NCBI GenBank assembly: GCA_028287235.1
Contig: JAQBQB010000010.1
Location: forward strand, 372,001 to 436,000
Source of the DNA: Gemmatimonadota bacterium
Lineage (GTDB): Bacteria > Gemmatimonadota > Gemmatimonadetes > Gemmatimonadales > Gemmatimonadaceae
Direction of reading: 5' to 3'
DNA length: 64,000 bases
Part shown: in pieces, positions 27,346-60,010 of the stretch
Numbering within the stretch: the first letter of the stretch is position 1
Layout of the letters: each line of letters starts with the position of its first letter
Made by a program: the position numbers and the translations under genes
The notes under the pieces: model-generated
Databases searched by the model: none
What the model was told of the DNA's origin: nothing
Seen by the model: the letters and a program-made list of their open reading frames with translations, nothing else

Positions 27346-27419
27346 TGTCATCCTGAGCGAAGCGAAGGATCTCTCCGCCCGGAAAGAGATCCTTCGTCGC
27401 TGCGCTCCTCAGGATGACA
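27346..27419. repeat. Dispersed TGTCATCCTGAG inverted repeat
   Basis: The terminal arms TGTCATCCTGAG and CTCAGGATGACA are perfect complements, with inner complementary GAAGGATCTCT and AGAGATCCTTC. This is the well-known intergenic repeat that reads 'cctgagcgaagcgaaggatct' in many bacterial genomes. It folds into a long hairpin downstream of panB and may end transcription. Confidence 0.85.
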
Positions 27420-56054: not shown

Positions 56055-56075
56055 GAAAAAACTCCCTTGGGCGAA

Positions 56076-56213
56076 GGGTTTAGGGTCTGGGGTTTAGGGT
56101 GTAGGGAAGGTGTGCGGTCGCGCCGTTGGCGCGCCCGCTCGATATGGGGATGCCGACAGGTCCACCCGTCAAGCCGCGCCTCAGGCGCGACGTACCATCC
56201 CTAAACCCTAAAC
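56076..56213. repeat. TTTAGGG-type inverted repeats between pilT and pilC
   Basis: GGGTTTAGGG at 56076-56085, repeated as GGGGTTTAGGG about 15 bases later, is mirrored by CCCTAAACCCTAAAC at 56199-56213. Two short perfect hairpins lie between (GCGCC-GTT-GGCGC and CGCGCC-TCA-GGCGCG). The block may be a small non-autonomous element or a factor-binding region; it separates pilT from pilC. Confidence 0.6.
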
Positions 56214-56233
56214 TCAATCCCCGAAACCCTGTC

Positions 56234-57373
56234 TCATTTCTTCCCCGCCATCCCGCCGGCGGGTGTCTTTTGGTCGTCCGGCGAGATGCCGATCATGCGC
56301 ATCAGCTCATTTTGATCGTGACTGGCGCGGAGCACTTCTTCGAGCACCACGGTCTTGCTCATGTACAACTGGTACAACGCGTCGTTCATCGTCTGCATGC
56401 CGTACTTCTTGCCCGACTGCATCATCGAGTAGATCTGGTGGATCTTGTCGTCACGAATGAGCGCGCGAATGGCCGGCGTCACGACGAGAATCTCCGCGGC
56501 CATGGCTCGGCCCTTTCCGCCGGCGCGGGGCAGCAGCGTCTGTGTGACGATGCCCTCGAGACAGAAGGCGAGCTGCGCGCGAACCTGCGACTGCTGGTGG
56601 CTTGGAAAGACGTCGATGATACGATTGATCGCTTCGGCGGCGCTGTTCGTGTGCAGCGTCGCGAAGGCCAGGTGGCCCGTTTCGGCGATCGTGAGTCCGG
56701 CCTGAATCGTTTCCAGATCGCGCATTTCGCCGATCAGCACGACGTCGGGATCCTGACGCAGCGCGTACTTGAGGGCGGCGGAGAAGCTTTTCGTGTCGCT
56801 GCCGACTTCGCGCTGGTTGACGATACAGCCCTGGTGCTTGTGGATGAACTCGATCGGATCCTCGATCGTGATCATGTGCCCCTTCAACTCCTTGTTGATC
56901 TTGTCGAGCATCGCCGCGAGCGTCGTCGACTTGCCGGAGCCCGTGGGACCGGTGACGAGAATGAGCCCGCGCGGCTTGTCGGAGAGATCGGCGATGACCT
57001 TGGGGAGCTTGAGCTCGTCGAAGGTCTTGATATTGAAGGGGATCTGTCGAATCACCATCGAGACACAACCGCGCTGCTTGAAGCAGTTGCCGCGGAAGCG
57101 CGCGAGGTTCTGGATGCCGAAGGAGAAGTCCAGCTCATCCTCGGTCTCGAAGCGCTTTTTCTGATTCTCCGTCAACACCGAGTAGGCGAGCTGCAGCGTG
57201 TCCTTGGGCTGCATCACGAAGTCGATGTTCGAGCTCTGCATGTCGCCGTCGATGCGGAGCTTGGGACGCTCGCCGGCGGAGATGTGGAGATCGGAGGCGC
57301 CACGCTCGATGACCTCTTCGAGCAAGACACGGAGGTTGAGGCCTTGGGCGCCAGGAGGAGTTGGAGCGGTCAT
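56234..57373 (-). CDS. pilT: Type IV pilus retraction ATPase
   Basis: A 379-residue hexameric ATPase powering pilus retraction. The Walker A is TGPTGSGKST at 141-150, the Asp box IEDPIEFIH, Walker B VLIGEMRDLETI, and the His box AETGHLAFATLHT. The C-terminal AIRALIRDDKIHQI corresponds to the AIRNLIRE motif required for retraction in PilT. It precedes pilC in the same direction; pilB and pilin genes are not in the window. The start is ATG 57373 with weak ribosome binding. Confidence 0.96.
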   Translation of the reverse strand: MTAPTPPGAQGLNLRVLLEEVIERGASDLHISAGERPKLRIDGDMQSSNIDFVMQPKDTLQLAYSVLTENQKKRFETEDELDFSFGIQNLARFRGNCFKQRGCVSMVIRQIPFNIKTFDELKLPKVIADLSDKPRGLILVTGPTGSGKSTTLAAMLDKINKELKGHMITIEDPIEFIHKHQGCIVNQREVGSDTKSFSAALKYALRQDPDVVLIGEMRDLETIQAGLTIAETGHLAFATLHTNSAAEAINRIIDVFPSHQQSQVRAQLAFCLEGIVTQTLLPRAGGKGRAMAAEILVVTPAIRALIRDDKIHQIYSMMQSGKKYGMQTMNDALYQLYMSKTVVLEEVLRASHDQNELMRMIGISPDDQKTPAGGMAGKK

Positions 57374-57515: not shown

Positions 57516-57585
57516 ATCTTTGATGCGCTGTGGGTTCACGGTTTTGCGCTGTTCGTTTCGAGTCACTGATGGACTTCGACGGGTC
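57516..57585 (+). repeat. Left inverted repeat arm
   Basis: Reads ATCTTTGATGCGCTGTGGGT and onward to GACTTCGACGGGTC; complement of the arm at 58017-58085. Upstream of the four-helix-bundle gene. Confidence 0.75.
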
Positions 57586-57662
57586 GGCCTACCGCGTGGG
57601 AATGCAGTCGGTCGCAGGATTCCGATGCCATATCCGCCGAGCCGGACTGGTATTGTCGAGGC

Positions 57663-58217
57663 ATGCAGGACTTTCGTCGTCTGCGGGTCTGGAGAAAGGC
57701 GTTTGCGCTGGCGATCAACACGCGTCGGGCCACACAGCGCTTTCCGCGCACCGGGTATGCGGAGCTCAAGGCGCAGATGATCTCCGCTGCCGAGTCCATC
57801 TTCAACAACATCGTCGAAGGATGCGGGGCGAGCAGCCAGAAGGAGTTCGCGCGCTTCCTCGACACGAGCATCAAGTCATCGATGGAGCTCGAGGGAGAGT
57901 TCCAGCTGGCCTACGGCTACGGGGCGGTACCGAAGGCAGACTGGCTCGCCCGGCAAACCGAAATCATCGAGACACGACAGATGCTTTACGGTCTGCGACA
58001 AAAGGTCTTGGCGGATGACCTGTCGAAGTCCATCAGTGACTCGAGACGAACAGCGCAAAACTCTAAACCCACGGCGCATCAAGATGCCGAGCGCCGCGAC
58101 GGTGCTATGCCGCCGCCGCCGCCGCCACAAACCCCTCAAACAACCTCCTCGCCGCCTCCTGACTATCCGTCAACGCCTCCGGATGCCACTGCACTCCCAC
58201 CACGTACGCTCCATTAG
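57663..58217 (+). CDS. Four-helix-bundle protein (S23/IVP family)
   Basis: A 184-residue protein whose first 120 residues are a typical S23/IVP four-helix bundle (DFRRLRVWRKAFALAINTRRAT, MISAAESIFNNIVEGCGASSQKEFARFLDTSIKSSMELEGEFQLAY, and a last helix near 100-120). The family occurs in 23S rRNA intervening sequences, as the Avd accessory of diversity-generating retroelements, and as solitary genes. After residue about 120 the frame runs through the right inverted-repeat arm and then antisense into the neighbouring gene for 113 bases, giving a Pro/Thr-rich tail, so the natural C-terminus was probably lost. ATG preceded by GAGG. Function unknown; possible nucleic-acid binding. Confidence 0.82.
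   Translation: MQDFRRLRVWRKAFALAINTRRATQRFPRTGYAELKAQMISAAESIFNNIVEGCGASSQKEFARFLDTSIKSSMELEGEFQLAYGYGAVPKADWLARQTEIIETRQMLYGLRQKVLADDLSKSISDSRRTAQNSKPTAHQDAERRDGAMPPPPPPQTPQTTSSPPPDYPSTPPDATALPPRTLH
58017..58085 (-). repeat. Right inverted repeat arm
   Basis: Complement of the left arm. It lies inside the 3' part of the four-helix-bundle frame, so the arm encodes residues of about 119-141 of that protein. Confidence 0.75.
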
Positions 58218-58869
58218 CACTCTCTAAACCCTCCACCAACCCATCCGGCGCCACCGCGCTCACCGCCAATCCACCGCCCACCGCACGCACGCCTTGATGG
58301 TGCATGCTGTTCACTTGCAACGCCCCTTCCCCGAACACCGCCGCCAACCGGCTGTCCGGCGCCACGTCGACGTCGTGGGCGAGGTAATCGCGCCGAAGGT
58401 TCGACCCACCGTACGGGAAGTAGTCGTGCTTGATCGACCCCGGCAGCTGCTCGGCGATATCCTGATAGAGCGTGCCGCCGGCGGCGAGGTTGATGAGTTG
58501 CATGCCGCGGCACACGCCGAGCACGGGCTTGCCGTCGGCCATCGCCCAGCGCGCCAGCGCGAGCTCGACGCGGTCGCGCTCGCGGTCGGTCTTGTCGCAG
58601 AGTGGGTGGGGCGCGGTTCCATAGGACACCGGATCGATGTCCGCTCCGCCCGGAAGGAACACGCCGTCGAGCGAGTCGTAGATGCCGCGCAGCGTCTCGT
58701 CGTCGATCAGCGGCACGAGCCACGGGATCGCGCCCGCCTCCGTCAGCGTCACGACGTACCGTTGGCTCATGACCCACGATGGAGGAATCTCCGCCGACAC
58801 GCCGCCGAGGCTCTGCAGCGTCTGCGTGGGGATGCCGATGATCGGACGCGCTCGTGATTTCGACGACAC
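58105..58869 (-). CDS. Gamma-glutamyl hydrolase-type class I amidotransferase (peptidase C26)
   Basis: A 254-residue class I glutamine-amidotransferase fold of the C26/PuuD type: ARPIIGIPTQTL, VFLPGGADIDPVSYG, the nucleophile C120 in GKPVLGVCRGMQLINLAAGG, and the His-Glu of the triad in VGVQWHPEA. PuuD splits gamma-glutamyl-GABA; this enzyme should cut a gamma-glutamyl or similar amide bond. GTG 58869 starts one base after the upstream stop. It is the last gene of a six-gene operon with two ATP-grasp ligases and a YbdK-type ligase, which suggests it trims or recycles their product. Confidence 0.9.
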   Translation of the reverse strand: MSSKSRARPIIGIPTQTLQSLGGVSAEIPPSWVMSQRYVVTLTEAGAIPWLVPLIDDETLRGIYDSLDGVFLPGGADIDPVSYGTAPHPLCDKTDRERDRVELALARWAMADGKPVLGVCRGMQLINLAAGGTLYQDIAEQLPGSIKHDYFPYGGSNLRRDYLAHDVDVAPDSRLAAVFGEGALQVNSMHHQGVRAVGGGLAVSAVAPDGLVEGLESANGAYVVGVQWHPEALTDSQEAARRLFEGFVAAAAAA

Positions 58870-58870
58870 T

Positions 58871-60010
58871 CTATGCCCGCTCCATGAACCGCTTCGTAAT
58901 TTCGGGACGAACGCCTTCCGCCGTTTCGGCGATGACACGGTCGACCACGCGTAGAAAATCGCCGGTCTCGTCGAAGACCTTGAGCTGGCGATCGGCGCTC
59001 GTGCCGTTGCGCATGATCTCGAAGGCGTATTCGACCTCGCGGCGGCTGCCCAGCTCGTCCACGACGTCGTCGACGAACCACTGCAGCATCTCGGAGATCA
59101 GCTCGCGCGCCGGCAGCTCCTGCTGCTTCCCGAAATCTATCAGCTTGCCGTCGAGGCCGAAGCGCACGGCGCGCCACTTATTCTCCTCGATCATCGCCGT
59201 GGGATAGACGCGGAAGGTGAGGTTGTCGCGCCGCAGCTTCCAGATCTTGGCGACGATCGCTTGCAGAATCGCCGCGATGCACACCGCCTCCTCGACGCGC
59301 GTGCAGACGTCGCAGACTCGGAACTCGAGCGTGGGATAGGCGTGGTGCGGCCGCGCGTCCCACCAGATCTTCGATCCGTTCGGCACGCACTTGGTCGTCA
59401 CGAGCGAGCCGAGGAGCTCGTCGTAATCGCCGGCCGAGCGCATGATGGGCGGCACGCCGGTGCGCGGAAAATTCCTGAAGACGATGCTTCGGTACGACTT
59501 GAGGCCCGTGCGCCGCCCCTGCCAGAAGGGGGAGCTCGTCGAGAGACAAAGCACGTGCGGCAGCAAGTAACGCGCGACGTTCATGGCGTCGATGAGAAAT
59601 TCCGGGTCCTCGATGCCGACGTGAATGTGCGTGCCGAAAATCAGTAGCTGCTGCGCGAGGTCCTGCAGGTCTTCCTTCACGCCGGCGTAGCGCTCGAGCG
59701 GCGTGATCTCCTGCGTCATCCACGAGGAGAACGGGTGCGTGCCCGCGGCGGCGATGGCCAAGCCACTCTTTCCGGCGAGGTCCATCACGAGCCCGCGCAG
59801 GCGCACCAGCTCGTTGCGCAGATCCGACGGCGCGCGACACACCTTGCTGCCGATCTCCACCATCGACTGGTGGAGCTCGGGCTTCACCTCGTCGAGAATC
59901 ATGGAATCACCGGAGAGAATCTCGGTGATGTACGACTTGAGCTCGCGCGTCTCGGGGTCGATGATCTGGTATTCTTCCTCGATTCCCAGGGTCAACGATG
60001 GCGCATTCAT
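58871..60010 (-). CDS. Carboxylate-amine ligase, YbdK/GCS2 family
   Basis: A 379-residue GCS2-type glutamate-cysteine ligase-like enzyme: [19 protein letters not shown] at the start, [45 protein letters not shown], and [17 protein letters not shown]. These match YbdK proteins that join a carboxylate (often gamma-glutamyl) to an amine using ATP. The ATG overlaps the cpATP-grasp stop by four bases. Paired with two ATP-grasp ligases and a gamma-glutamyl hydrolase homologue, it likely builds a small peptide or amide; real glutathione synthesis cannot be inferred. Confidence 0.92.

Follow-up and report, generated by a model that had tools for sequence, protein, structure and literature searches.

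We report a unit of 570 bases, located in a 64,000-nucleotide stretch of DNA (the window), that we interpret with a probability of about 0.8 as a copy of a small mobile DNA element built from two inverted degenerate-heptad arrays around one IVP/S23 gene. Read as a class, IVP-heptad units would form a family of very small mobile elements that is widespread in bacteria. Empty sites, presence/absence, ORF-less copies and dispersed arrays support mobility of the class; no movement has been observed and gain and loss have not been polarised on a tree, and the mobility of the individual window copy is inferred from its class. The unit and its surroundings comprise the following features:

57520 to 57585, plus strand: left arm, a 66-nt inverted repeat with a degenerate 7-nt-phased array
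58017 to 58082, minus strand: right arm, inverted partner of the left arm
57663 to 58217, plus strand: ORF of the IVP/S23 four-helix-bundle family, 184 aa, family domain at about residues 6-110
56234 to 57373, minus strand: flanking PilT/PilU-family ATPase gene, pilT (TIGR01420, 6e-146)
58105 to 58938, minus strand: flanking Peptidase_C26 / class-I glutamine amidotransferase gene (PF07722, 2.6e-61), start codon uncertain
56075 to 56230, no strand assigned: ORF-less fold-back element of GGGTTTA heptads, gene-free and resembling an IVP unit, between pilT and pilC

The two arms are 66 nt long, 91% complementary and 431 nt apart. Their local inverted-repeat score is 103; among 196 other window positions with this geometry the highest score is 28 and the median 18. 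The ORF between them matches PF05635 (6.7e-22, 78.2 bits versus a cut-off of 33.8) and TIGR02436 (2.1e-21, 76.2 bits versus a cut-off of 24). An S23/IVP gene enclosed by long inverted repeats, as proposed in the first-pass annotation, is therefore borne out; of the arms given there as about 69 bp long and about 90% identical, the inverted repeats stand and the length does not. Among solved proteins the closest, judged by sequence similarity only, is Xanthomonas campestris XCC0516 (2GSC, 3.5e-8); the S23 structure of X. campestris has been described as a homopentamer of four-helix bundles (PMC4990558). The unit is flanked by pilT and the Peptidase_C26 gene and so lies outside any rRNA, as had been stated. 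A gap of 22 bp separates the edge of its right arm from the Peptidase_C26 stop codon (58105-58107, minus strand), which faces the arm; the earlier placement directly after the stop of a neighbour thus holds, with the qualification that the IVP gene is oriented opposite to that gene. The RNA of the unit is predicted to fold into one long stem (z -10.6, with 0 of 100 shuffles equally stable), in agreement with the RNA stem that the arms had been expected to form.

The 7-nt phasing of the arms was overlooked in the first-pass annotation. In the window copy it was seen by eye and is weak and degenerate (best lag-7 window 21/49), the left arm reading GCGCTGT, GGGTTCA, CGGTTTT, GCGCTGT, TCGTTTC and GAGTCAC. 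Scans of the window for lag-7 arrays under strict settings detected nothing, since the arrays there are short or degenerate. Within the unit the IVP frame meets no stop codon and continues through the right arm, and no clear target duplication was seen around the copy; for these two reasons the window copy is probably old. No orthologous empty site for the unit was found among five congeners; their closest homologues to the flanking amidotransferase share about 40% identity with it and are located away from pilT, so that the window unit is not directly comparable. Another dispersed palindrome family, TGTCATCCTGAGCGAAGCGAAGGATC-like, was noted at positions 27346-27419 of the window (C23:399346) and at C23:169398.

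We define the IVP-heptad element class as an IVP gene between inverted 7-nt-phased arms, and the window unit meets this definition. Long inverted flanks, counted at an inverted-repeat score of at least 40, were found at 73 of the 93 IVP loci of the window's order, versus 1/462 swapped flank pairs and 1/58 far pairs. The same pairing was recovered at IVP loci from many phyla (33/74, versus 4/296 GC-matched swaps). The Xanthomonadaceae set was left out of these statistics, its swapped controls (38/291) being inflated by heptads shared among many loci. Lag-7 identity was 0.318 and 0.321 in the IVP flanks versus 0.270 far off, and a best 49-position lag-7 window of at least 30 was seen in 27/94 flanks upstream and in 27/94 downstream, versus 4/145 far flanks; lags other than 7 gave counts of 0-7. 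Across phyla, lag-7 arrays were present at 27/74 positions near IVP genes versus 2/59 far from them. The heptad differs from locus to locus (GGGACTC, GGCATCA, GTGCAGA, GGATCGT and GGGTTTA, among others) and is typically G-rich upstream and C-rich downstream of the IVP gene.

Several variations on this architecture were encountered. Some units and dispersed arrays are phased by 8 nt (G020 and G014, L460-L475; L249 and L250), and lag-8 arrays numbered 13 in IVP-rich genomes versus 0 in IVP-less ones. Two near-identical plasmid units, L385 and L386, have five versus three left-arm heptads, a difference that suggests gain or loss by slippage. Genes of the GxxExxY family (PF13366, PD-(D/E)XK-like) were also found inside inverted repeats (13/29, versus 1/812 swaps), for example at G000:C23:210397-210929 (L319) and among L304-L333; their arms, of the CACAGAGACACAGAG type, lack 7-nt phasing, and these loci possibly form a second class sharing the architecture of the IVP units.

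The source genome (G000) harbours six PF05635 genes and a decayed seventh (L007, C23:224988), and inverted arms surround the IVP gene in the window copy, in copies on contigs C12 and C9, and in the decayed L007. A solo copy of the left arm on C12, 81% identical over 66 nt, lies just past the stop of an upstream gene that, named by eye, looks like a cytidylate kinase. At this locus (L006:1480-1530, G000:C12) the solo arm is preceded by an imperfect tandem duplication, CTTAGAGATCTCGATGC, that contains the stop codon of the upstream gene. On C23 (456 kb scanned), fold-back ORF-less elements have arms matching particular IVP loci of the source genome: L007 for the element at C23:241532 and others, the C9 locus for those at C23:252324 and 336733, and the C12 IVP unit (88.9% over 36 nt) for the element at 56075-56230 of the window, which is 4 bp away from the pilT stop. 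In most of these elements the distance to a stop codon is 4-28 bp. Within the class, genomes contain MITE-like copies that lack an ORF and have heptads matching those of an IVP unit resident there. The finding that would have refuted the initial interpretation, namely no other copies and a locus conserved in relatives, was not obtained: copies exist, and no orthologous arrangement turned up in the congeners.

Dispersed heptads are also associated with IVP genes. A census of ten genomes gave 28 lag-7 arrays per 800 kb in six IVP-rich genomes versus 1 per 800 kb in four IVP-less genomes, the latter being a GC run. The distribution among IVP-rich genomes was uneven (G011, 12; G020, 9; G014, 3; G035, 3; G023, 1; G009, 0). 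For 20 of the 28 arrays the best-matching arms were those of the genome's own IVP loci, versus about 1 in 15 by chance. Neither the array counts nor the own-genome matches were corrected for phylogeny.

Filled and empty versions of one site could be compared on cyanobacterial plasmids. A 428-bp unit is present on Trichormus and Scytonema plasmids, and none is found at that site on plasmids of Nostoc linckia, Aulosira, Fremyella and Nostoc carneum. In the Trichormus/N. linckia pair the flanks of the insert are 99.5% and 98.5% identical; the empty site reads AAAAAGTAATTAACAAAT and the filled one AAAAAGTAAT-unit-GTAATTAACAAAT, the insert being located at a TAA stop codon and bracketed by a short direct repeat, GTAAT/TAAT. 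The same site holds a truncated unit copy in Nostoc C052 and, in Brasilonema, a fold-back element without an ORF, bordered on each side by TAATTAA. We regard the GTAAT/TAAT repeat as a candidate target duplication of uncertain length (GTAAT at one site, TAATTAA at another). Three further plasmids carry ORF-less elements of about 175 bp with the arms of the 428-bp unit and similar interiors, in unrelated surroundings. Two Calothrix plasmid copies were considered as a case of recent transposition and rejected: their surroundings are 97% identical, indicating one and the same insertion.

The sites of the class are intergenic and mostly at or just past stop codons, including within the core operons nuoC/nuoD, carA/carB and accB/accC. 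According to simple ORF calls, an arm edge lies at most 30 bp from a stop codon in 44 of the 73 IVP units of the window's order, and from a start codon in 12/73. The nuoC/nuoD junction (NCBIfam names) is occupied irregularly in Mesorhizobium, where 30 of 146 genomes match across the whole unit and most others match in two abutting pieces; clean empty junctions were confirmed in 18/20 inspected genomes. The junction shows four heptad types (AGTAGTC, GTGAATA, GCGAATA and GGCAGTA), and its IVPs are 48-66% identical among themselves versus 48-59% to the IVPs that the same genome carries at two further sites. They are thus about as distant from each other as from IVPs at other sites, which suggests repeated insertion. 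A single Mesorhizobium genome (G059) has four IVP units at four sites with four different repeats. Xanthomonadaceae have IVP units at carA/carB and accB/accC, with GGGATTC/GGGAATC arms at the latter, and orthologous unit positions are kept across many species of both Mesorhizobium and Xanthomonadaceae. The nuoC/nuoD IVP is under purifying selection (dN/dS 0.064; 29, 13 and 81 variable sites by codon position); we infer from selection at this fixed site that IVP may protect the expression of the interrupted operon and thereby retain the element. Inspection by eye of the Mesorhizobium nuoC/nuoD loci L188, L272, L282 and L283 also pointed to a resemblance between the first heptad of each type and the host sequence at the nuoC stop (host CAGTGA and heptad TAGTGAA; host GCAATA and heptad GCGAATA), which raises the possibility that the target seeds or guides the heptads.

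None of the partner families examined accompanies the units throughout. RVT_1 was detectable in only 12/59 relatives and undetectable in ten genomes with 7-12 IVP genes each (G009, G010, G011, G014, G020, G023, G035, G043, G050 and G052), while Y1_Tnp was undetectable in the source genome and in several IVP-rich genomes, including some without RVT_1. A reverse transcriptase or a Y1 transposase as the required trans factor was rejected because of their absence from several IVP-rich genomes. GxxExxY was likewise rejected as a required partner, being absent from genomes with 7-12 IVP genes; G008 presents the reverse situation. The proposal of a minimal mobile element with a four-helix bundle as its only protein, made in the first-pass annotation, accordingly gains support at the level of the class, from copies, empty sites, ORF-less derivatives and the candidate target duplication. 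As for the means of movement suggested there, a transposase in trans or an RNA route, the data do not confirm it and do not rule it out completely.

How the element moves is a more tentative matter. The most far-reaching hypothesis, to which we give somewhat less than even odds, is that IVP is the specificity factor of a transposase-free element: each IVP copy would recognise its own heptad and, relying on nothing but host enzymes, would bring about insertion and the growth of heptad arrays, the orphan heptamer repeats of Xanthomonas, Nostoc, Beggiatoaceae and others being products of this activity. Our main reading, for its part, includes an inference made on the evidence of association alone: the IVP protein would recognise its own arms, either as DNA or as an RNA stem, and would be needed in trans for their spread. 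Cutting and copying would be carried out by host enzymes, and the arms would be repeatedly expanded and homogenised, so that each element would keep its own heptad.

It is also conceivable, although we consider it unlikely, that the units are MITEs with a passenger, on whose arms an unrelated host transposase or recombinase acts in trans while IVP is merely carried along or protects operon expression. The existence of ORF-less copies, which move without IVP in cis, fits this explanation, as do the strong purifying selection on IVP at fixed sites and the lack of a known catalytic site in the IVP family. It would nevertheless oblige a single sequence-specific transposase to recognise very different ends, since the heptads differ at every locus, and it does not account for heptad arrays being nearly absent without IVP and matching the cognate IVP copy; moreover, RVT_1 and Y1_Tnp, the latter the only transposase family surveyed, are not required. 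An RNA route, in which the transcribed stem is excised by RNase III in the manner of rRNA intervening sequences (IVSs), reverse transcribed and reinserted, appears improbable. S23 proteins do resemble the Avd proteins of diversity-generating retroelements (DGRs), the predicted stem is strong, insertions lie within transcribed operons, and rRNA IVSs offer a precedent (PMC4990558); the scarcity of RVT_1, missing from all ten of the genomes listed above, argues to the contrary.

Slightly more improbable still is the absence of any mobility, with IVP an ordinary operon gene and the heptads products of slippage or binding or processing sites of IVP, forming a local palindromic flank. Purifying selection could indeed mean a host function at a fixed locus, and orthologous positions are kept in many Mesorhizobium and Xanthomonadaceae species. 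Against this, there are clean empty sites, unrelated heptads and IVPs at one junction and multiple non-syntenic copies, and the ORF-less copies at unrelated sites argue strongly for mobility together with the clean plasmid empty site. Finally, a chance inverted repeat around an unrelated gene can safely be discarded, being refuted by the arm score relative to the window maximum and by the order-wide flank statistics.

If the mobile-element reading with IVP as specificity factor is true, it explains the role of solitary S23/'four helix bundle' genes, which are very common, and the origin of intergenic heptamer repeats, and it implies a mobile element without recognisable transposase, recombinase or reverse transcriptase that inserts at stop codons in core operons.

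Among known systems, the DGR accessory protein Avd has a four-helix-bundle fold related to S23/IVP. Unlike Avd genes, the window IVP gene has no reverse transcriptase next to it, the only RVT_1 of the source genome being on C2 and the unit on C23. REP/BIME sequences mobilised by RAYT are similar in that they are palindromic repeats between genes, spread by a cognate protein encoded in single copy, and differ in that Y1_Tnp is absent from the source genome and several IVP-rich genomes, so that a cognate Y1 transposase is lacking, and in that the arms here are heptad arrays. With MITEs and insertion sequences the units share inverted ends, multiple copies, ORF-less derivatives and, at one clean site of the class, a short direct repeat (none is clear at the window copy); in contrast, the only ORF is a four-helix bundle matching no family other than IVP, there is no transposase, and the ends vary between copies. 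The closest parallel for the gene is the rRNA IVS with an S23p ORF, described in Leptospira, Coxiella and Brucella as sporadic and called a parasitic element (PMC4990558). Both have an S23/IVP ORF inside complementary, long-stem ends, which the window unit possesses in its arms and predicted fold, and both are sporadically distributed, whereas IVP-heptad units lie between protein-coding genes, have locus-specific 7-nt-phased arms and give rise to ORF-less dispersed copies. For the arms, the parallel is the orphan heptamers, GGGAATC in Xanthomonas and GGGGATT in Nostoc (PMC4692102) and TAACTGA in Beggiatoaceae and cyanobacteria (PMC4679880). These are likewise intergenic 7-nt arrays, and GGGAATC, for which enrichment and frequent inverted pairing in Xanthomonas have been published without a reported general link to mobile elements (PMC4692102), is the same heptad as in the arms of the Xanthomonadaceae accB/accC units. 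However, S23/four-helix genes are mentioned 0 times in PMC4692102 and PMC4679880, and a literature search of partial coverage retrieved no paper connecting them with heptamer repeats. As the rRNA location of IVSs, the transposase of insertion sequences, the Y1 transposase of REP elements and the adjacent reverse transcriptase of DGRs were each tested for and found absent, we place the IVP-heptad element in a category of its own, a more cautious view being that it is a variant of the IVS. Heptamer repeats and rRNA IVSs carrying S23 ORFs were each known before, and what appears new, within that partial literature coverage, is their joining.
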